Shown: positions 11,786-63,652 of the stretch, piece by piece | How positions within the stretch are numbered: the first letter of the stretch is position 1 | Layout of the letters: each line of letters opens with the position of its first letter | NCBI GenBank assembly: GCA_029009155.1 | Contig: JAQXJX010000021.1 | Span: 62,001 to 126,000, forward strand | Direction: 5' to 3' | Source of the DNA: Mycoplasmataceae bacterium | GTDB taxonomy: Bacteria > Bacillota_I > Bacilli_A > Mycoplasmatales > Mycoplasmoidaceae | DNA: 64,000 bases | Position numbers and translations under genes: made by a program | Notes under the pieces: model-generated | What the model was told of the DNA's origin: nothing | The model's database searches: none | What the model saw: only the letters and a program-made list of their open reading frames with translations

Positions 11786-12268
11786 ATGAAACGCAAAGAT
11801 TATATCGATTGAGACCAATATTTTATGGGTGTTGCAAAATTATCTGCTTTGCGTTCTAAAGATCCAAATACACAAGTAGGTTGCTGTATTGCAACTCCTG
11901 ATAATAGAATTGCATCATTAGGATATAATGGATTGCCATATGGTTTAAGTGATGATGATTTTACTTGAGAAAATCGTGATAGCACACAATTAGAATGTAA
12001 ATACTGATATGTTTGTCATTCAGAATTAAATGCTATTTTGAACTATCGAGGAGAATCATTAAAAGGATGCAGATTGTATGTAACATTATTCCCTTGTAAT
12101 GAGTGTGCAAAAGCAATTATTCAATCTGGAATAAAAGAAGTTATTTATGAACAAAATCTTTATCCTGATTCAATGTCAACAAAAGCTTCAATTAAAATGT
12201 TGACATCAGCCGGAATTAAATTAACACAATATACTAATAAAAATTATCAGGTAAAGTTTCTTGTCTAG
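11786..12268 (+). CDS. dCMP deaminase
   Basis: A 160-residue zinc deaminase converting dCMP to dUMP for dTMP synthesis. It has the zinc-site motifs HSE (His78, Glu80) and PCNEC (Cys104, Cys107), and an N-terminal [15 protein letters not shown] segment typical of the ComEB/dCMP deaminase family. It directly precedes the anaerobic ribonucleotide reductase gene. NrdD makes deoxynucleoside triphosphates, so a dCTP/dCMP route to dUMP fits this placement. Confidence 0.9.
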
Positions 12269-12318: not shown

Positions 12319-14340
12319 ATGGTTTATGTAATTAAGCGTGATAATAGAAGGGTTTTATTTAACAAAGATAAAATTCAATCAGCAATTATTAAATCTTCTG
12401 AAAATAATCAAGTAGATTTAAGTATTAAAGAAGTTAAAAAGATAGTAGATTTAGTAGTTAAAAAAATTACTGACACTAAATTAGAATCTATTGCAGTTGA
12501 GCAAATCCAAGATATGGTTGTTGACTCTCTTTATGAACTAGGATATTCTTTATTAGCAAAGATGTATCAATCTTATCGTGAAGAAAGAACACGCATCAGA
12601 GAATCAAAATCTGATTTAATGAAAAAGATTATTTCAATTGGTATTGAAACTGACCGGGACAATGCAAATGTTGGTAATAACTTTTCTGCTAAACTATTAA
12701 GAATTGCTTCTGAAGCTAATAAATGACATATTCTAAATGTTATTCTTCCCCCTCGTTTAGCTAAATTGCATGAAAATGGTGATGTATATATTCATGACTT
12801 AGATAGTTACAATTTGACAGTTAATTGTTTGCATTTACCAACTGGAAAAATTTTAGCTCGTGGTTTTAATACTGGTTATGGTTCAATTAACCCTCCTAAA
12901 CATATTGAGGTAGCAGCTGAATTAACTTGTATTTTATTACAATCTACTCAAAATGATATGTTTGGTGGTCAAAGTCATTGTAATTTTGATAATGATTTAG
13001 CTCCATATGTTGCCTTAACTAGAAATAGTATTCGTAAATCACTAATTGAGAATAATATTGCTTTAGATAGAATTGATGAAATTACAGAAGCTCAAACAAA
13101 CCGTAGAGTTCATCAAGCAATGCAAGCAGTTGTATATAACTTAAATACTATGCATTCACGTGCTGGTAGTCAAGTTCCATTTAGTTCACTTAATATTGGT
13201 ATTCCTAAATCTAAAGATGCAGCTTTAGTATGTCAAGCTTTCTTAGAAGAATATGCTAAAGGTATGGGACAAGGTGAACAACCTATTTTTCCAAATATTA
13301 TATTTAGAGTAAAATCAGGTGTTAACCGTGAAGAAGATTCACCATATCATTATTTATTTAAATTAGCTTGTGAAGTAGCTGGTCAAAGAATGAATCCAAC
13401 ATTCATGAATATTGATGCTGATTTTAATAAAGAATATTATGACAAAGGATACATGCCAGCCACAATGGGATGCCGTACATACATAATGTCTAATATTAAT
13501 GGTGAACCTGGTGTTGAAGGTAGAGGTAATAATGCACCTGCTACTATTAACTTAGTTCGTTGTGCTATTTTAGCTAAAGGCGATATTAATAAATTCTTTG
13601 AAATATTTGATCAAAGAATTAATGATGCAATGGAAATAAATGAACACCGCCATGAAACATTGAAGAAATTAAAAGTAAAAGACTTACCATTTGTTGCTGG
13701 ACAAAAAATTATGTTAGGTAGTGAAAACTTACAACCAGATGATTCAATTGAACCAATTATGAAAAATGGTTCATGAGGTATTGGATACATCGGACTAGCT
13801 GAAACTCTAACGGCTTTAATTGGTAAACATCATGGTGAAAGTGCACAAGCGCAAGAACTAGGTTTAAAAATTGTTACACATTTAAGAGAACGTTGTAATG
13901 AATTTACTAAAGCTAAAAAGATGAATGTAAGTTGTTATGCTACTCCAGCTGAAGGCTTAAGTGGAAAATTTGTAGCAATAGATAAACGTATCTTTGGTGT
14001 AATCAAAGGTGTTACCGATAAGAATTATTACACTAATAGTTATCATATTCCGGTTGGTTTTCATATTTCTATTGCTGATAAAATTAAGATTGAAGCACCT
14101 TATCATAAATTATCTAATGGTGGACATATTTCATATATTGAATTTGATTCATATCCATCAGGAGAAACAATTAGAAAGATTTTAACTTGGGCTTATTCTC
14201 AAACAAACATAAATTACATGGGTATTAACTTCCACATTCGTTATTGTAGAGATTGTGCTGAACGAATGCACAAAGCAGAAATTGAACGTAGAAAAAAACA
14301 AATTGAGGATGCTCAAAAGGAGCAATTAGCTAATGCTTAA
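12319..14340 (+). CDS. nrdD: Class III anaerobic ribonucleotide reductase, core lacking the glycyl-radical domain
   Basis: A 673-residue enzyme reducing ribonucleoside triphosphates. An N-terminal ATP-cone (about 1-95; VIKRDNRRVLFNKDKI) is followed by the ten-stranded barrel. Cys385 in MGCRT is the catalytic thiyl position, and Cys170 in TVNCLHL matches the second active-site Cys. Normally the C-terminus has two zinc CxxC pairs and then R-x-TGYL. Here the protein ends after the first pair (Cys643, Cys646 in YCRDC), with a 27-residue charged helix-like tail instead. The missing piece is encoded separately at 14907-15119. AAGGAG is 10 bases before ATG 12319; ATG 12311 opens only six codons. nrdG overlaps its 3' end by 8 bases, so no radical domain can follow in frame. 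Confidence 0.93.
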
Positions 14341-14854
14341 TGATGATAGTAAATTAATTAGATTAGCAGGAATTGCTGAAAATAGTTTGGTTAATGGAAA
14401 AGGTTTAAGAAAAGTATTTTTTTCTCAAGGGTGTTCCCACCATTGTGAGGGTTGCTTTAATCAACATACTTGAGAATTTGCAGGCGGTAGAATGTTTGAT
14501 ATGGATGAATTGGTTCAAAAAGTAAAAGATGAACCTTTCCTTGATGGAGTAACATTTTCTGGAGGCGATCCTTTCCAACAAGCAGACAAATTTGCTTATT
14601 TAGCTAAAAAATTACATGAAGCTAATATTAATATATGAGCTTATACTGGTTATACATTTGAAGAATTAATGAAATTAGCTCAAACTAACCCCCACATTAA
14701 ACAAATGATAAATAATGTTGATGTGATAGTAGATGGTCGCTTTATGAAAGATAAAATGAGTGAAAATCTAAAATATTGTGGTAGTTCAAACCAAAGAGTT
14801 ATTGATGTAAAATCATCATTAAACGAAAATAAAATAATTTTATTTAAAGATTAA
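14333..14854 (+). CDS. nrdG: Anaerobic RNR-activating radical SAM protein
   Basis: A 173-residue radical S-adenosylmethionine enzyme that installs the glycyl radical on NrdD. The 4Fe-4S motif is CSHHCEGC (Cys34, Cys38, Cys41), followed by VTFSGGDPFQQ and a VDVIVDGRF segment, both typical of NrdG. AAAGGAG inside the nrdD 3' end precedes the ATG, and the genes overlap by 8 bases, so synthesis is coupled. Its protein substrate should be the separate 70-residue Gly domain encoded just downstream rather than NrdD itself. Confidence 0.93.
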
Positions 14855-14906: not shown

Positions 14907-15119
14907 ATGGAAAAGAAAGAAAATCAAGTTGCTTATAAAGTAACATATTTAACAGCAGATGAATGTACATGTCCAGTTTGCGGAAGCCATAACATTCAAA
15001 ACGTTACACGAATTACTGGTTATCTTTCATTAGACGAAAGATTTGGCCCAGGTAAAGTTGAAGAACGTGCTGATAGAGTTGCTCATAATTGTGAAGCATC
15101 TAAAAAAATATATCGTTAA
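14907..15119 (+). CDS. Detached glycyl-radical/zinc domain of class III RNR
   Basis: A 70-residue free protein that equals the C-terminus missing from NrdD. It carries the second zinc pair CPVCGS (Cys22, Cys25, plus Cys20) and the radical loop RITGYL with Gly38 as the predicted radical site. Next come RFGPGK and ERADRVAH, the standard NrdD ending (R-x-TGYL...GK...E...DR..H). It has its own start, a purine-rich AAAAAAGGAAC upstream and a strong terminator, so it is a real gene and not a shadow frame. It must dock on the NrdD core to supply the radical. The four-Cys zinc site would be shared between two chains. Confidence 0.9.
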   Translation: MEKKENQVAYKVTYLTADECTCPVCGSHNIQNVTRITGYLSLDERFGPGKVEERADRVAHNCEASKKIYR

Positions 15120-15130
15120 TATATAAAAAA

Positions 15131-15156
15131 CACACCAATTAATGGTGTGTTTTTTA
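15131..15156. terminator. Bidirectional terminator
   Basis: CACACCA (15131-15137) pairs with TGGTGTG (15143-15149), flanked by A6 and T6, so it can end both the nrd operon (+) and the LRR gene (-). Confidence 0.85.
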
Positions 15157-15197: not shown

Positions 15198-17291
15198 TTA
15201 TTTTACCTTAATCTTATCTCTAGATGATGATCAATATGGATTATTACAATATTTGTCTTTTATGGTTTGATCTTTAACTCAAATGGTATTTATTTTAGTG
15301 TTATATAAACAACCATCTTTATCAAAAGGTTTAGCATTTAAACTAATTACATGATCTAATGCAGATAAATCTAATTCTTTTAAAGGACTTATTTCTGCAA
15401 AAGCATTATTACCAATGTGTTGAAGACTATTTGGTAAAACGAGTTTATCAGATTCAAGATCATCACATTTATAAAATGCTTGTTCTCCAATGTCTTCAAG
15501 ACCTTCATTAAAGTTAATACTGATAATTTCTTTACTAGTTAAAAAAGTATTACGTGAATTACCATAAAAAGCTCGATTTCCAATTTTCTTAATACTGCCA
15601 GGAATAGTTAATTTACATTTTTTAAAATATCAACGTTCTCAACAGCTATAGAAGGCGTCATCATTTATTTCAGTTATTATATGTTCATTTGGGCCATATA
15701 TAAACTTACCATTATTGAAATTGAAATTTCCGGTTGCTTCAAAATTACGAGAAACAGATTTAATTTTAGTTTCATTAGGATCTGAATAACTAAAAATAAA
15801 TGTACTATCATTATTTCCGCCAATATATTGTGAATTTATTTCTTTAATTTCTTCATCTTTACATGCTAAATATTTTGCAGCAGAAGATCAAAATTTATCT
15901 TTTAGATATGCTTGTTTTGTAGTTTGATCTTTAACTAAAATTTTAGTTACATATGTTTGAGATAAAAAACCTTTTCCACCAAAAGGATCAGCATCTAAAC
16001 TAATTACATGATCTAAAGCTGTTAGATCTAATTCGTCAAATGAAGTTATACCTTCAAAAGCTCGATTGCCAATGTGTTGAAGACTATTTGGTAAAACAAG
16101 CTTATCAGATTCAATATCTTTACATGAACAAAAAGCAAGTGCTCCAATATCTTCTAAACCTTCATTAAAGTTAATGCCGATAATTTCTCTTTTAGTCAGG
16201 AATGAACTACGTGAGTTTCTATAAAAAGCATGATCACCAATTTTTTTAACAGTAGAAGGAATAGTTAAATTACATCTTTTAAAGTATCAATCATCACAAC
16301 CACACTCGAAAGCACCATTTCCAATTTCTGTAATTGTATACTCAACATCATTAAATTTAAATTTACCACCATTAAAATTGAAATCTGCAGTTGCTACAAA
16401 TTCATGACTTACATAATTCAATTTTACATCGCTTCGTGTTGTATATTTAATATCGAATAAACTATCATTACTTCCGCCAATATATTTTGAATTAATTCTG
16501 CTATGAATAACATAATCATTTTCACATGCAAAATATTTATTAGATGAACATCAAAAAGCATCTTTTGAATATGCTTCTTTCATCTTTTGATCTTTTAGAA
16601 TAATTTGTATTACATTACCTATTGAGCAAATTTGTTTTCATTCTATATCTAATTTAATTACATGATCTAAAGCAGATAAGTCATATACATATACAGTCAT
16701 TGAAGAAAATGCATTTTTTCCAATATATTTAAGACTGTTTGGTAATTTTATTGTTGTACTTAATTCAATATTTGAATTCTGTCAAAAAGCTTGCTCTTCT
16801 ATATATTCAACCCCTTCTTCAAAGTTGATGCCAATTATTTCTTTATTACCTCCGCCACTAAAATTGCGCGCAAAAGCACATTTTCCTATTCTTTTAACAG
16901 TAGAGGGAATAGTTAAATTGCAATTTTTAAAGTATCATCTAACGGGGCTACAATAAAAAGCGTTATCAGCAATTTCTGTAATACTGTATTCAGTTCCATT
17001 ATATTTCAACTTACCACCATTAAAATTAAAATCTCCACTTGCTACAAAACTAGTATTAGCTCCTAAAATTGTGCAATTGTGTCCTGTAAATTTAACATTA
17101 ATTGTTCCTTCATCAGCACCAATTAATTTAGCATCAATTTCTTTAATATCTGCATCAGATATATTATTTTTGTTTATATTTTTTATTTCATTCTTTGTAA
17201 TATTTTTATTAAAAGAAGTTGCAACAATGTTTGTTAAAAAACATGCGGAACTTAATCCAACAAGCACCTTAAAATATTTTTTATTTTTCAC
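15198..17291 (-). CDS. Secreted BspA-like leucine-rich-repeat protein, three tandem modules
   Basis: A 697-residue protein with an N-terminal signal peptide (KYFKVLVGLSSACFLTNIVA) and no C-terminal membrane anchor, so predicted secreted. The mature part is three tandem modules of about 215 residues, starting near 17135, 16500 and 15850. Each has a FNFN-x-GK strand, EYSITEI-like strand, NAF-x-C LRR_5 repeats, LPNSLQHIGN and an ALDHVI-x-L element. BspA-type LRRs mediate adhesion in oral bacteria and are greatly expanded in Trichomonas. The start is GTG at 17291 with AGGAAGG upstream. The stop is at 15198. Many Trp are UGA. Confidence 0.88.
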
Positions 17292-32143: not shown

Positions 32144-32158
32144 AAATTATTGATAAGT

Positions 32159-35668
<3,510 letters not shown>

Positions 35669-35863
35669 TTACTTATCTTCTTCTGATAATTCAATTGCAC
35701 ATGCAGGGCATACATCACAACATGCACCACATCCAATGCATTTATCCTTATTTACATGTGCTTTTCCATCTTCACCAATTTGAATAGCACCAACAGGACA
35801 CACACCTTCACATGCACCACATCCTAAACATGCATCACAATTAACTTTTGCTTTTTTTGCCAT
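35669..35863 (-). CDS. 2[4Fe-4S] ferredoxin
   Basis: A 64-residue electron carrier with two complete cluster motifs, CLGCGACEGVCP and CIGCGACCDVCP. It is the likely electron acceptor of PFOR, whose stop codon directly abuts this gene's stop. The ATG at 35863 is preceded by AAGGGGG 8 bases upstream on the minus strand, which decides it over longer in-frame starts. There is no hydrogenase or other oxidant of ferredoxin in this window, so the final electron sink is unknown. Divergent from the PFL core gene. Confidence 0.93.
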   Translation of the reverse strand: MAKKAKVNCDACLGCGACEGVCPVGAIQIGEDGKAHVNKDKCIGCGACCDVCPACAIELSEEDK

Positions 35864-36003
35864 ATTTACCCCCTTAGTAGTAAAATTATTACATAATATC
35901 AAAACACTTATTATTTATCTACTTTAATTTAAATCGTTCATATATAATATGTTTGTTAATATTATAAAAATATTAAATTATAAATCGAAAGTTCGGAGGA
36001 AAT

Positions 36004-38205
36004 ATGTCAAAAACTTGATTTAAACAATGAGAAGGTTTTAAACCTGGTTCATGATCTAATGAAATTGACGTTCGTGATTTCATTCAAAAAAACTATACTC
36101 CATATGAAGGAAGTAGTAGTTTCTTAACTGGACCAACTAAAGCTACTCTTAATCTATGAGACAGGGTATTAGAATTATCTAAAAAAGAAAGAGAAAATGG
36201 TGGTGTTTTAGATATGGACACTCGTTGCTCATTCATTGATGCTTTTGGACCTGGTTATTTATCAGATGCTAAACACCGTGATGAAGAAAAAATTGTTGGT
36301 GTTCAAACAGATGAACCATTTAAGAGAGCATACATGCCTTTTGGTGGTGTTAGAATGGCAAATGCTGCAGCTGAAAATTATGGATTTAAAGCAGACCCTA
36401 AGTTAGTTGAAATTTTTACAAAATATCGTAAAACTCACAACCAAGCTGTATTTGAAGCATACACACCTGAAATGAAAGCTGCAAGACATGCTCACATTAT
36501 TACAGGTTTACCTGATGCATATTCAAGAGGTCGTATTATTGGTGACTACCGTAGAATTGCACTATATGGTATTGACTATTTAATTAATGAAAAACTAGAA
36601 GCACGTGAAAAAATGACTGATGTTATGTCAGCTGATGTAATCCGTGTAAGAGAAGAAGTTGCTGACCAAGTAGCTGCTTTAAAAGCTATGAAAACTATGG
36701 CTGCTGCATATGGTTTTGATATTTCTCAACCAGCTGCAAATGCTAAAGAAGCTATTCAATGAACATACTTTGGTTATTTAGCTGCAGTTAAAGACCAAAA
36801 TGGTGCTGCAATGTCAGTAGGTAGAGTTTCTACATTCTTAGATATTTATATTGAAAGAGATTTAAAAAACAATTTAATCTCTGAACAAGAAGCTCAAGAA
36901 TTAATGGACCAATTCGTAATGAAATTAAGAATTGTTAAATTCATGAGAACTCCTGATTACAATGATATCTTTAGTGGTGACCCAATTTGAGCTACTGAAT
37001 CAATTGGTGGTATGGGTATTGATGGAAGAACATTAGTTACAAGAAACTCTTTCCGTATCATTCACTCTTTATCAAATATTGGACCTGCTCCAGAACCAAA
37101 TTTAACTATTTTATGATCTACACGTTTACCAGAAAACTTTAAAAAATTCTGTGCTGAATACTCAATTAGATTCTCTTCAATGCAATATGAATCTGATGAT
37201 TTAATGCGTGTAACTCATGGTGATGATTATGCAATTGCATGTTGTGTATCTCCAATGAAAGTTGGTAAACAAATGCAATTCTTCGGTGCTCGTGCTAACT
37301 TAGCAAAAGCATTATTATACGCAATTAATGGTGGATATGACGAAATGGAATGTCAAAAAGATCCAGAAAATTGTGACAAACACCGTTTAGGACCATGATT
37401 ACCTCAATTAGACACAACTGAAGGTGTAGCATTATGCTATGAAGAAGTTAGAGCTAGATACCGTGAAGTAATGAAATGATTAGCAAAATTATATGTTAAC
37501 ACATTAAATGTTATTCATTACATGCATGATAAATATTACTATGAAGCAGCTCAAATGGCTTTATATGATTTAGATGTATACCGTTTCTTTGCAACAGGTA
37601 TTGCTGGTGCTAGTGTAATTGCTGACTCATTATCTGCAATTAAATATGCAAAAGTATATCCAGTTTGAAAGAAATTACCTAATGGTCGTTCAATTGCTGT
37701 AGACTTCAAAGTTGAAGGCGATTTCCCTAAATATGGTAATGATGATGACCGTGTAGATATGATTGCTGTTGATGTAATTTCTGAATTTGTTACAGAATTA
37801 AAGAAAAACCCAACTTACCGTGATTCTCATGTAACTACTTCAATCTTAACAATTACATCAAACGTTATGTATGGTAGAAATACTGGTACAACTCCTGATG
37901 GAAGAAAAGCTGGTCAACCATTTGCTCCAGGTGCTAACCCAATGCATGGTAGAGATGCTTCAGGTGCTGTTAACTCATTATCATCTGTTTCAAAAATTCC
38001 ATTCAGATATGCAGCAGATGGTATATCTAACACATTCTCAATTATTCCAGGTGCTTTAGGAAAAGATGGCAAAATGTTAGTTATTTCAGGTGATGAATTA
38101 GACATGGAAAAAATTGCTCGTGCAAAAGCATGTGATGATTCAAAACCATGCTCATCTACTTCAAAATGCAAAAAAACTACTAAAACTTGCAAAAAAGGTA
38201 AATAA
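36004..38205 (+). CDS. pflB: Pyruvate formate-lyase core lacking the glycyl-radical domain
   Basis: A 733-residue PFL catalysing pyruvate + CoA to acetyl-CoA + formate. The barrel is complete: WEGFKPG start, [12 protein letters not shown], and the active Cys413-Cys414 pair in [10 protein letters not shown]. Up to [15 protein letters not shown] it follows E. coli PFL. There E. coli continues into NLAGLMDGYF and the radical loop RVSGYA, which are absent here. Instead comes a new tail of about 40 residues with four Cys and many Lys ([22 protein letters not shown]). A terminator follows, so there is no hidden domain downstream. The radical domain is the separate gene 63389-63652. GGAGG precedes the ATG. 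Confidence 0.93.
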
Positions 38206-38254: not shown

Positions 38255-38290
38255 TTTTATAATATTAATATATACATTAGGTTGATATTT

Positions 38291-40942
38291 ATGAGAAAAA
38301 GTGTAAAAGGTAAGATTAAATTAAGTTTCATAATGTCTTTTATTGGTCTTTCAACATTGGGATCACTATTTGTTGGTAGTAATGTTAATACTAACAGCAA
38401 TAATGTTTCAACAAAAGTTTCGAATCCAGTAAATGAAGCATCTTTTGTTGTAACTTATTTAGATGATTCATCTGTTGAACAAACTATAACATGTTCCACT
38501 GATGCTGATTTTAATGCATTGTGCATTCCTGATGGTCAAACAACAGTTACATTAAACGGAACAACTATTGATATTACAAAAATTACATCAATAACACTTG
38601 ATTATGAAACAGGTGATTGAAGTAATATTACGACAATAGGAGATAATTTTTTAAAAGGATTTACTAGTTTATCTAAATTTAGTTTGTCCAATATGCCAAA
38701 TCTAACTTCAATTGGTGCTGGTTTTATGGATGGATGTACTAGTGTAACGGAATTAGAAATTTCAAATTTACCATTATTAGCTTCAGCTGAATTTTTATCT
38801 GCTTTACAAACATGTACAAGTTTAACAGATATAACTATTAGTCAACTTCCTCTTGTTGATCAAACTTCTTTAAAAAACGGAATTACAAACTTATCAGGAT
38901 TACTTACAAAAATTGACATTAGTAACATGGATGGAATTACAAGTGTTGCTGATTTATTTAGCTCAATGACAGTATTAGAAGATTTGAGTCTAAGTAATTT
39001 AACTAATGTAAATTCATTGACATCAGAAATATTCACAAGTATTTCGGGTTTACGAATATTAAAATTAGCTAATATTGGTGTAACTACATTCCCAGAGAAT
39101 TTTTTAGCAAATTCTTCATTGACTTCTCTTACTTTAGGTGAATTTCCAACATTGACTTCTTTACCTATAGGATTTTTGAGTAATTCTGCTAATTTAACTG
39201 CATTAAACTTTCAGAGTGATTTAACAAATATCACTGCCATTCCTAATGACTTTTTAACAGGTTGTTCAAGTTTATCTAATGTCAATGTTTCAATATTATC
39301 AAATTTAACAAGAATAGGAAACAATTTTTTAAAAGGCTGTTCAAGTTTGAATGCATTTGATATTAGTACTATTTCTAATTTATCAAGTATTGGAACAGGT
39401 TTTTTAAAAGATTGCACTATTTTAAACTCAATCAATTTTCCTACTTCTTTAACAAATATCACTGCCATTCCTAATGATTTTTTAGTTAATTGTAGTAACT
39501 TAATAGCTTTAGACCTTTCTGGCTTTGGCAATGTTACATCAATTGGAACAAATTTTTTAAGTCAATGTAGTTTATTGTCTAACATTGTTTTCCCAACATT
39601 CAGTAATTTAACTTTAATTAATGATTATTTCTTATCTGGATGTTCTGATCTAAGAAACATTGATTTCGCAAACTTTGCTAATGTTGAAACAATAAAAGGA
39701 CATTTTTTAGATGGATGTATTGCATTAAGAAAATTAAATTTTGGTCCTTGTACTAAATTAACTTCAATTGGTGCAAAATTTTTAAATAATTGTAGCGATT
39801 TACAAACAATGGATTTAATGGAAAAAGAAACTCCACCAACTTTAACTAGTTGAGGTGATAATTTAAGTGCTTTAACGTTAATTACAACTAATTTTAATTC
39901 ATATGCTTCTGCTACAACTTGAAGCGAAAAAGCTCCTCTTATTAAGAACAATATGGTTGTAGTTTGTTCAGTAACAACAGGAACTGTAGGTCAAGAAGTT
40001 CAAGTAACTGCTACAATCAATAATTTAGATCATACTACTGATCCTATTACATGAACTGCAGATTCTACTTATATCCAAATTAGCGATCCTACTTCATATT
40101 CTGGCGTTGCTAAAACTATAAAACTATTAAAAGCTTCTTCTACTCCTATAGTTATTACTGCTACATCTGGAAGTTATGTAAGAACTATTTCTATTACTAT
40201 TAATCCAGCAACTGTAACTGCTATTACTTTACAACAATATAGTTTTGAAAATGTTGAAATAGGTTCAGAAATTACAAACGTTGCCACAATTAATCCAGAA
40301 GCCGATCCAACAACACCAATTTATTGAAAGGTTCGTCAAACTTCTGACGCACATGCTGTTAATATTGTTAATAGTGAAACAACAACAGGAGTAGCGGTTA
40401 GAATTAATATTTTATATCGTCCAAAACAAGGAAGTGGAACTGTGATGTTTGATGTAACATCAGGTGCAAAGAAAACATCTTTTGTAGTTAATATTAAATA
40501 TAAAGATGTTGAGAGTGTTCAAATTGAAGGAACACCAACAATTAAAGGAAATGAATCAACAGGTGGTAGTCAAATTTATAAAGCTATAGTAAATCCAGTA
40601 GGTTCTGATCAAAGTGTTGAATGATCAATTGAAACACAAGATCATCCTGATTGAATTACAATCAATTCTTCTACAGGTGAATTAAAATGAACAGATGCTG
40701 CTGTTCTTGGTGAATATACTTTTAAGATTAGAGCAACTTCAACAGCATTTACTCAATTTTTTGGTGAAAAATTATGTACATTAATTATTAATACTAAACC
40801 TACCCCTCCAGCTCCTTCACCAAGTGTAAATAATAGTAATTGATTAGTTTGAATAGGAGTAGAATCAATCGGAATTTTAGCAATAATTATTGGTGTATAT
40901 TTCCTAGCTTCATTCTTCTATAAAAAACATTTAAGAAAATAA
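38291..40942 (+). CDS. Membrane-anchored LRR/Ig-like surface protein
   Basis: An 883-residue surface protein. It has an N-terminal signal peptide (to about residue 36) and about fifteen LRR_5/BspA-like repeats of roughly 23-28 residues (pattern L-x-x-IG-x-x-FL-x-GCSSL). Ig-like beta domains follow (about 545-840, with VGQEVQVTATI and SSTGELKW elements), then a Pro-rich hinge, one membrane helix (about 851-873) and a short basic tail. The C-terminal anchor faces the protein outward. The start is ATG 38291 with AGG upstream. A 30-base exact repeat lies inside (39220-39249 and 39448-39477). Likely host-interaction role is inference. Confidence 0.88.
39220..39477 (+). repeat. 30-base exact direct repeat inside the LRR gene
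   Basis: 39220-39249 and 39448-39477 are identical and in the same frame, encoding LTNITAIPND. The intervening 198 bases are in-frame LRR units, so recombination between copies would delete 76 residues (228 bases) without a frameshift. Confidence 0.8.
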
Positions 40943-60408: not shown

Positions 60409-62508
60409 TTATTTAACTTTTTTAGTTACTTTTCTTGTTTTTAGTGGAGAAGTTTTAGTAACAGGTTTAGTTGATGTTTTATTTTTTTTCTTTTTATTTT
60501 CTTCTTCTTCTTTTTTCTCTTTAGCAACTATTTTTTTATGTTCTTCCTTATCAAATTCAGTTTTAAATATTTTTGATGAAACATTTTTTGATTCCATATC
60601 AACAATCAATAATTTATTGCGTTTATTTTTAATAATTTCATAAATTATTAATGGAGTAATTGAACCAATTAAAACAAATGCTGCAACTATACAAATTTCA
60701 ATTATTCTTGTTTGTGAAATAGGAGAGGATTTTTGTTCAACTACTTTACTATGATCAATGTTAAAAGAAGATGCGTTTACATAATTAGATTTACTTCCAT
60801 AAGGAACAATTACTTTTGCATTATCTGATAATTTTGGAGCTCAATTTGTATTATCGTCAGCTGAACCATTAAAATGAGGAGGAACAATTGGTAACAATTT
60901 AATAGTTGAAATTTTAGTACAACCTAAATATGTTGATTCATTTGATGCAAATGAATCAATAGTATCACCATTAAAACAACCTTCCCCTATGTATGTTACA
61001 GAACTTGGAATGATAATTTCTCCAGATAATGAAGTGCAATTATAAAAAGCATTCTTACTTAAATAAATTAGTGACGTATAAGATAAATCAATAGATTTTA
61101 AGCTACTACATCCAAAAAAGCATTCATCTTTCATTTCAGTTAATGCTGATGGTAGTCTTGTGCATTCATTCATTAAACTACAATTTTTAAAAGCACCTTC
61201 ACCTAAATATCTAATTTTCTTAGATTTAGTTAAATTAAGTTTTTTAAATTTAATATTTTCAAATGCATTGTTTCCAATTATTTCTAAGTTAGATGGAAGA
61301 GTTAATTCATTTCATTCAGAATTGTTAGCACAATTGTAAAAAGCAAAATTACCTATTGAAGTTAAATGAGTAGCATTTGATAAATTTATGCTTTCTAATT
61401 GAGGTACATCACTAAAAGCACTATTACCAATTGATAATAAGTTATCTGTTGCAACAAAAGAACCAGTTAGCGATTCACATTTTTTAAAAGCATTATCACC
61501 AATATATTTAATTGAGTTAGGGATGCTAATATTGCCTACTAAAGTAACACCACAATCACCTTGGAAAGCTCCTGCACCTATTCCATAAACACCATTTAAG
61601 TCAGGAAATTGTTCATTTACATTTTTGTCTTCTTGTGTAATACCATCTTTAATTATTCCTATACATCATTCATTACATCCAGAAACATTTCTTTTTGAAA
61701 AAATGAAATGTGTATCTTGACTACGGTCTGTTAAAAGACTAGTTTTATAAAAAGCATGTCATCCTAAATTTGTTACAGATTGTGGAATAGAAATATAACC
61801 ATTAATATAAGTACAGCCTTGGAATGCTTGACTTCCAATAAATTTAAGTTTTTGGTATGTAGATAAATCTAAATCACCTGTTAATCCTAAACAATTTTCA
61901 AAAGCTGATTCAGCAATAGCTTGTGTATCAGATTCAATTTTAAATTTAATTGGATCTTGTTCACTTATTGGACGATCTTCATCATCTCTATAACCTAAGC
62001 ATCATTTTGTAATTGCAGTAGACCCTGCTTCTGATGTTGAATAAATTAAATTATCTTCAGACTTATTTAAACCTGTTCCTTTAAATACATCTTTTCCAAT
62101 ATAATTAAAAGAACTTGGAATAGTGACAGTTCCAGTTAAATTTGTTCGATCCATGAAACATTCTTTCATGATACCATCAACTACATAGCTAACGCCTTCA
62201 ATAGTTGCTTTTTCTTTTAATTTAATATTTGAACCACTAAAATCAGATGAACTAGAAACTAAAGTGATGTGTTTATTGATAGGGCTTTTAAAATAATTAA
62301 TTGTTCCTTTAATGTTTTCACCGCTAATAAAAGTAGAAGCAACAGCTGAAGGAGTAATAAAATCCTTTTTAAAACTATTACGTTCATTAATTGCAAATGT
62401 ACTTTTAGAGGCTGTAGTATTATTATTTATAACAGTAGAAAAACTTGTAGCTGTAATAATTGATGCAGCAGCCGTAAATAAAAAAGTAAATATTGATCTC
62501 TTCTTCAT
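60409..62508 (-). CDS. Membrane-anchored BspA-like LRR protein with basic cytoplasmic tail
   Basis: A 699-residue surface protein. It has an N-terminal signal peptide (FTFLFTAAASIITATSFS), then LRR_5/BspA repeats (I-P-x-S-V-x-x-IG-x-x-AF-x-x-C/N). One membrane helix (about 603-626, ICIVAAFVLIGSITPLIIY) follows, and then an unusually long 73-residue Lys/Glu-rich tail predicted to be cytosolic. The tail could tie the adhesin to internal structures, which is inference. Several UGA-Trp codons. Start is the ATG at 62508 with AGG 14 bases upstream. Confidence 0.88.
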
Positions 62509-62577: not shown

Positions 62578-63321
62578 TTAATTATTTGGTTTTGCTTTTT
62601 TAATACATTTCATAGCGTTTGCAATATCATTTTCAGTTGGTACTTTAACATCAGAAAGCTTATATTGTATTCCCATTTGTTTGTATTTATCAACTGCCAT
62701 ATTGTGATATGGTAATATTTCAAAACGTTTTAAATTTCTTAAAGAAAAAATAAATTTTCCTAAATTGAACAAATCTTCAGGATCATCAGTATAAGAAGGA
62801 ATTAATACTTGTCTTAATCAAAAAGATTGATTATTTTCATCTAAAAATTTAATTAAATTTATTTCTCTTTGTTCTTCAATTCCTGTTAATAATTTGTGTT
62901 TTTTTGGATTAATATGTTTAACATCAACTATTCAAAGAGGGTTATATTGACAAATTTCTAAATATTTTTCTTTAGTAGAGTCAGTAAAATTAACCCCACT
63001 TGTATCTAAAGCTAAGGAAATATTAAGATCATGACATTTTTTTGCTAATTCTTTAATGAATTTTAAGTGGATTAAAGGATCTCCACCTGATATAGTAATA
63101 CCACCTTTTTTATAAAAAGAAATATTACGTTGATATTTTTCTATGATTTCATCAACTGTAATTGTATTAATACCACTTTTATTTAATTCTCAAGATTCTG
63201 GATTGTGACAATAAAGACAACGGTATAAGCATCCTTGACTAAAAATGACTAATCTTACACCAGGGCCATCCACAGCACCAAAAGATTCGATTTTGAAATA
63301 AGGTAATTTAAGTTGTTCCAT
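62578..63321 (-). CDS. pflA: Pyruvate formate-lyase activating enzyme
   Basis: A 247-residue radical SAM enzyme that abstracts hydrogen from the PFL glycine. The 4Fe-4S motif is [13 protein letters not shown] (Cys31, Cys35, Cys38), preceded by [16 protein letters not shown] and followed by [11 protein letters not shown], all typical of PflA. The gene lies directly downstream of the detached PFL radical-domain gene, its true substrate, and 25 kb from the PFL core. A terminator between them probably lowers pflA output relative to the radical domain. Confidence 0.94.
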
Positions 63322-63388: not shown

Positions 63389-63652
63389 TTATATAGATTT
63401 GTGGAATGTTCTACTAATAACTTCATCTTGTTGAGCTTTTGTCAATTTAATGAAGTTTACAGCATATCCGCTAACACGGATAGTTAATTGTGGATATTTT
63501 TCAGGATGTTTTTGAGCATCTAAAAGTGTTTCACGTGATAAAACGTTAACATTTAAATGGTATGCACCTTTTCCAAAGTATCCATCCATCATATCAACTA
63601 GATTTTCAGTTGAGTTTTCTAATTCAAGAGCTTTGTTTGCTTGATCTTTCAT
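63389..63652 (-). CDS. grcA: Detached glycyl-radical domain of pyruvate formate-lyase
   Basis: An 87-residue free protein equal to the C-terminus missing from the PFL core. [34 protein letters not shown] and the radical loop [10 protein letters not shown] with Gly62, then [11 protein letters not shown]. coli GrcA/YfiD is a stress-induced spare version of this domain. Here it keeps the PFL-type MMDGYF lead-in lacking from YfiD and is the only copy I see, so it is a subunit rather than a spare. GAGGT lies 6 bases before the ATG and TATAAT is upstream. The symbol grcA is by analogy. Confidence 0.92.

Follow-up and report, generated by a model that had tools for sequence, protein, structure and literature searches.

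The analysed window, a stretch of 64,000 nucleotides from an assembly of Mycoplasmataceae bacterium (GCA_029009155.1; contig JAQXJX010000021.1, positions 62,001 to 126,000), contains a locus for a class III ribonucleotide reductase whose catalytic protein, NrdD, is encoded in two separate pieces. With the open reading frames translated with TGA as tryptophan, the following genes were distinguished, in this order, on the forward strand: (i) a dCMP/cytidine-family deaminase gene (11786-12268; PF00383, E 3e-25), directly upstream of the nrdD core and consistent with a nucleotide-metabolism context; (ii) the nrdD core gene (12319-14340), encoding a protein of 673 amino acids (aa) composed of an ATP-cone and a 10-stranded barrel, and lacking the glycyl radical domain (GRD); (iii) nrdG (14333-14854), which overlaps the end of the core gene and encodes the dedicated radical-SAM activase of 173 aa (TIGR02491, E 7e-50; PF13353; PF04055); and (iv) a gene for a free NrdD-type GRD of 70 aa (14907-15119), separated from the core gene by nrdG. 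The free GRD gene begins at an ATG (14907) preceded by AAAAAGGAAC. A possible terminator hairpin, CACACCA-ATTAA-TGGTGTG-TTTTTT (15126-15156, forward strand), was recognized by eye 3' of this gene and was not called by the consensus scan; a promoter scan of the gene cluster gave results at chance level.

The PF13597 (NRDD) profile is shared out over the two proteins almost without gap or overlap: positions 1-516 are found in the core (E 8e-166) and positions 515-562 in the 70-aa protein (E 7e-10, a match that passes the curated cut-off). The models TIGR02487 and PRK07111 are cut between the two proteins in the same way. The core exceeds the cut-offs of the barrel models PF13597 and TIGR02487 (553 and 566 bits, respectively), and it also matches PRK07111 (926 bits) and the ATP-cone model PF03477. 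The glycyl radical motif RxxGY is absent from the core chain and present on the separate 70-aa chain, which phmmer aligns with the C-terminus of the NrdD of P. copri (8p23; E 2e-6). The predicted radical glycine, Gly38 (codon 15018-15020), lies in the motif R35-I-T-G38-Y-L, aligned with RITGYL of 8p23, and is preceded by a second motif, C22-P-V-C25. Models of GrcA, a spare part of pyruvate formate-lyase (PFL), were not among the NCBIfam matches of the 70-aa protein (TIGR04365, NF038360 and NF008341).

The AlphaFold2 (AF2) model of the core (pLDDT 88.7, pTM 0.80; low confidence at residues 640-642) superimposes with its residues 120-638 on residues 120-675 of P. copri NrdD 8p2s, with a root-mean-square deviation of 1.6 Å over 510 residues (Z 45.9). 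Since the GRD of P. copri NrdD comprises residues 676-739, with the radical glycine at Gly711 (PMC11226230), the core corresponds to a complete barrel that stops where the GRD begins. Five residues (Cys170, Cys385, Asn404, Cys643 and Cys646) are invariant among the split and fused cores of a 64-row core alignment, and Cys170 and Cys385 align with the NCC and MGC residues of the T4 enzyme. The thiyl-radical cysteine is Cys385 in the finger loop (ATMGC385R), and the partner Cys/Asn residues of formate-type enzymes are present.

Division of the zinc site

The C-terminus of the core reads FHIRYC643RDC646AERMHKAEIERRKKQIEDAQKEQLANA, with a tail of 27 residues past Cys646 (Cys643-x-x-Cys646 codons: 14245-14256), and the corresponding stretch of the 70-aa protein reads C22PVC25GSHNIQNVTRITG38YLSLDERFGPGK (Cys22-Pro-Val-Cys25 codons: 14970-14981). 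In a typical fused clostridial NrdD the same region has the form FHIRYC-x-x-C-G-TYL-x6-CPxCGS. The split core retains FHIRYC-x-x-C, followed by a residue other than G, and the free GRD retains VTYL-x6-CPxCGS, with the x6 spacing equal to that of the fused clostridial proteins. This agreement in motif and spacing indicates that the gene was cut inside the zinc-knuckle linker, between the second cysteine and TYL, leaving two ligands on each side. In NrdD structures, including those of T4 and T. maritima, the Zn-ribbon follows the last strand of the barrel and precedes the glycyl loop (PMC4493059; PMC11226230). All four cysteines of the zinc motif are present, two on each chain, at what the alignments indicate to be the sites occupied by the Zn ligands in fused NrdD.

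Conservation in the genus and reductase content

A free GRD was found in 34 of the 36 genomes of the genus: 31 show 60-72% identity, and three more divergent ones (G004, G015 and G017) have a 15-residue insert. Because it is present across the genus, the 70-aa protein is not a chance open reading frame. The YCxxC pair is kept in 33 of 33 split-type cores, which diverge down to approximately 44% identity and whose tails after this motif vary from 2 (G034) to approximately 30 residues. The CPxC pair is kept in all 32 free GRDs examined, its fourth cysteine lying 12-13 residues ahead of the glycine. In about half of the genomes the GRD gene closely follows the core and nrdG, and in the others it is found at a distance of several kb or on a different contig; in G004 it is placed directly ahead of the core, with a single in-frame TAA between the two. 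The closest GRD pairs (pS 0.27-0.38, pN 0-0.02, pN/pS of approximately 0.04) point to purifying selection. In the core tree the split cores cluster together, apart from the clostridial outgroup (100/100), and the named Clostridium relatives carry a fused NrdD of approximately 700-730 aa. The split layout occurs in more than 30 metagenome-assembled genomes (MAGs) from two collections; the GTDB loci are from MAGs bearing names such as Mycoplasmataceae bacterium, Mycoplasmatota bacterium and Ureaplasma sp. An earlier note on this DNA had described a free NrdD radical domain and a four-cysteine zinc site divided between two chains, and had proposed a search of relatives for short CPxC...RITGYL proteins next to nrdG; its coordinates and residue numbers were right, and both the domain and the divided site are borne out by the genus, with nrdG adjoining the GRD gene in about half of the genomes. 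The interpretation in that note is thus supported in part, its zinc clamp and metal-dependent, reversible assembly being hypothetical.

Short NrdD frames in family f5 of the same order were considered as further free GRDs, and those checked turned out to be fused NrdD once TGA was read as tryptophan (716 aa in L152; L151 alike). In scans of phages and plasmids with the 70-aa protein, the listed annotated matches were NrdD or hypothetical genes, with no recognised free GRD (six IMG/VR loci were left out). Some clostridial nrdD genes are also found in several pieces, and here intron matches were detected inside the loci (group I in L099 and L107, group II in L086).

The window genome (885 kb, 92.5% complete) contains no fused NrdD, and the core and the 70-aa protein are its sole PF13597 matches. 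Neither the class I/II catalytic domain (PF02867) nor the class I radical subunit (PF00268) was found in this genome, in searches in which control genomes were positive, and PF02867 was found in none of the 36 genomes of the genus. An inactive core, a possibility raised in the earlier note, is unlikely because the genome is without another ribonucleotide reductase. Two genomes of the genus, G002 and G026 (85-90% complete), gave neither an NrdD match nor a PF02867 reductase, reflecting either missing contigs or a loss of ribonucleotide reduction. Extra fused NrdDs are present in three others: L140 (G029:C2), L147 (G001:C29) and L148 (G034:C9). One of these, of approximately 724 aa and without TGA codons, is perhaps contamination; the other two, cone-less and divergent (27-28% identity), stand beside the split GRD.

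Proposed two-chain reductase and its alternatives

Descriptions of glycyl radical enzymes present them as one polypeptide, in which the radical domain has to flip out for activation and the backbone is cleaved by O2 at the radical glycine; in class III ribonucleotide reductases the radical passes from the GRD to the finger-loop cysteine. There, NrdG can generate the glycyl radical only when the GRD has flipped out (PMC12662201). The locus described here represents a new form of class III ribonucleotide reductase, made of two chains between which the zinc site is divided, and this form is conserved across a genus of gut mollicutes that are uncultured. The complementary profiles, the conservation of both chains and the lack of another detected reductase strongly suggest that core and GRD work together. 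Taken as a whole, the favoured reading, an obligate two-chain enzyme docked through a shared Zn(Cys)4 site, appears probable to us.

In this proposed mechanism the ATP-cone, the barrel that takes up the substrate and the thiyl-radical Cys385 would reside on the core chain, and the radical glycine Gly38 on the 70-aa chain. The product of the intervening nrdG gene would install the glycyl radical on the 70-aa chain. This chain would then dock on the core, with two cysteines from each partner forming a joint Zn(Cys)4 ribbon (C643/C646 of the core and C22/C25 of the GRD); the docked glycyl loop would enter the barrel and hand its radical over to Cys385, in the manner of fused NrdD. As the GRD is a separate chain, activation and docking would both be intermolecular. 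The likely benefit is that O2 would destroy only a replaceable 8-kDa piece. By analogy with YfiD and PFL, one may speculate that the assembly is reversible and that the GRD is exchanged after O2 damage.

The invariance of both cysteine pairs in homologous positions makes it likely that one Zn ion is shared by the core and GRD chains. In an AF2 run on the natural GRD-stop-core tandem of G004, with the stop read as Gln, the GRD obtained a pLDDT of 24-62 (pTM 0.59), values too low to speak for or against docking; most free GRDs had been left out of the alignment, as MAFFT placed them on the core. An observation that weighs against the shared Zn is another NrdD split, apparently of independent origin, found in three genera of an uncultured family of Bacilli (f20; L233:1073-3584(-), L237:972-3683(+) and L238:2906-5413(-)). 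At these loci the cut falls beyond the zinc site, and the core is followed by a 52-60-aa RR(V/I)TGYL protein and then by nrdG; the GRD lacks zinc ligands, and in L233 it has its own AAAGGAG-ATG start. This second lineage shows that a split NrdD needs no zinc bridge in principle.

Such bridge-free docking is the basis of the first alternative, in which the chains cooperate by other contacts and the zinc is not shared. It is possible that either cysteine pair has a homodimeric (GRD-GRD or core-core) metal-binding role or is a relic, and the low confidence of the core model at residues 640-642 would fit this. We nevertheless consider such an arrangement unlikely for the enzyme of the window, given that the four cysteines have remained invariant across 32-33 species despite the divergence of the cores, and that they sit where the Zn ligands of fused NrdD sit.

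According to the second alternative, the 70-aa protein acts as an accessory replacement piece in the manner of YfiD/GrcA; it rescues an O2-cleaved full-length NrdD and is not a constitutive subunit. Free GRDs repairing PFL are well established, and the same paper speculates on other glycyl radical enzymes (PMC8683613); moreover, the 70-aa protein resembles YfiD/GrcA in size and content. However, such a piece presupposes a complete enzyme that it can repair, and the window genome has no full-length NrdD, while the split-type core itself is without a GRD in 33 genomes of the genus. This explanation is thus largely refuted and very improbable, and would be revived by a fused nrdD hidden in the missing approximately 7% of the genome.

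It is hardly conceivable that the halves are rejoined by a split intein or a trans-splicing intron. Phage ribonucleotide reductase genes, nrdD included, often carry introns or inteins (PMC3653736), and group I and II introns occur in the clostridial nrdD loci mentioned above, but the core tails shrink to 2 residues and at most 23 residues precede the CxxC of the GRD, lengths that leave no room for the two parts of an intein. Furthermore, no intron family reached the threshold in the window, the GRDs start at their own start codons, and in G004 the GRD precedes the core. A sequencing error, frameshift or pseudogene debris, conceivable in assemblies of MAG quality, is refuted by the intervening nrdG, the recurrence of the layout in the MAGs of both collections, the inverted gene order or separate contigs seen in relatives, and the purifying selection; the intervening gene, the altered arrangements and the selection likewise exclude an intein.

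The two-chain enzyme shares several features with characterised NrdDs (T4 1h78, T. maritima 4coj, P. copri 8p23 and S. thermophilus 9d3x), namely the core fold, the catalytic Cys/Asn residues, the NrdG partner and a GRD sequence with the zinc CxxC and RxTGY, as well as an ATP-cone as in P. copri 8p23 and S. thermophilus 9d3x. Unlike these proteins, it has the GRD on a polypeptide of its own, and its two zinc CxxC pairs belong to different chains. YfiD/GrcA and T4 Y06I, the spare parts of PFL, are also small free GRDs activated by the radical-SAM activase of the enzyme, but they repair an otherwise complete PFL and have no zinc site, whereas here the core never has a GRD of its own. Another two-chain ribonucleotide reductase, the split class II NrdJa/NrdJb, likewise has a zinc-finger C-terminal domain on its second chain (PMC9669993); it differs in using a B12 radical and in having the zinc finger wholly on one chain. 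The family f20 enzymes likewise have the core, the free GRD and nrdG together in one operon, and differ from the window in the cut after the zinc site and in the order core-GRD-nrdG.

No description of a split class III ribonucleotide reductase (NrdD) was found in the open-access literature of PubMed Central, in agreement with the earlier note, whose author knew of none. That note had missed the split PFL described below, the NrdD split after the zinc site in another lineage and the lack of another reductase in the genome. If the proposed reading is true, the two-chain reductase would make a small soluble GRD available for work on the activase, and would serve as a naturally occurring test case to tell a purely structural role of the zinc ribbon from one as a docking clamp. 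It would also extend the spare-part idea from PFL to DNA precursor synthesis, for which it has so far been suggested and not demonstrated (PMC8683613). Annotation pipelines expecting a 700-aa NrdD would register a truncated gene and overlook the 60-75-aa partner.

Other detached glycyl radical domains

The same genome encodes a split PFL. The PFL core (36004-38205, forward strand) is a protein of 733 aa with a Cys/Lys-rich tail and without the radical domain; it matches positions 1-664 of 744 of TIGR01255 (1022 bits), the complete PF02901, and only positions 1-50 of PF01228. The free PFL GRD, a GrcA3-like protein of 87 aa (63389-63652, reverse strand), matches positions 46-106 of PF01228 and the GrcA3 model NF038360 (147 bits, below the cut-off of 158), and adjoins pflA, encoding the PFL activase (62578-63321, reverse strand; TIGR02493, 243 bits, above the cut-off). 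The GRD and pflA lie 25 kb from the PFL core. Genes for pyruvate:ferredoxin oxidoreductase (32150-35668, forward strand) and a 2[4Fe-4S] ferredoxin (35669-35902, reverse strand) adjoin the PFL core, in keeping with a strictly anaerobic lifestyle.

Across the genus, PFL is split in 22 genomes (21 fetched ones and the window) and fused in 8. On the NrdD core tree, the distribution of the two forms requires one state change if the tree is unrooted, and possibly two with a weakly supported rooting; from these counts, NrdD is split in some genomes in which PFL is still fused. GrcA3 occurs widely in Bacilli. A comparable arrangement was found at the ten GrcA3 loci of other Bacilli that were inspected, where a PFL core ending before the GRD adjoins the GrcA3 gene, accompanied in six of them by pflA. 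This pattern indicates that split PFL is already known to annotators, and our literature searches retrieved no paper on split PFL or on GrcA2/GrcA3. The PFL of the window is of the same kind as these truncated enzymes with GrcA3 (NF038360), in which core and GRD are likewise encoded by separate genes; they differ from the split NrdD in being PFL rather than a ribonucleotide reductase, in having no zinc site and in that GrcA3 is annotated as an autonomous cofactor.

Other Bacilli carry a further type of detached NrdD domain, proteins of approximately 95-110 aa ending in RIRRITGYL..RFNDAKRAEE.DR(V/I)KH, with their own N-terminal domain and without zinc cysteines (L229:3202-3504, L230:2489-2797, L234:272-580, L235:1533-1859 and L241-L244). 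Several of them occur alongside a full-length NrdD, and there is no NCBIfam model of their own. It is possible that these proteins are spare parts of ribonucleotide reductase, equivalent to YfiD/GrcA. A joint reading may be proposed tentatively, and is on balance slightly doubtful: the 70-aa protein would be a separate, exchangeable radical protein held by an intersubunit Zn(Cys)4 clamp, within a wider habit of Bacilli of detaching GRDs in order to swap O2-damaged pieces, which would take in PFL/GrcA3, the second NrdD split and the stand-alone NrdD-type GRDs.

The window also encodes three large proteins with repeats resembling leucine-rich repeats (LRR): 15198-17291 (reverse strand), 38282-40942 (forward strand) and 60409-62508 (reverse strand). 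The second of these matches the BspA-type LRR_5 family, and the other two are alike by eye.
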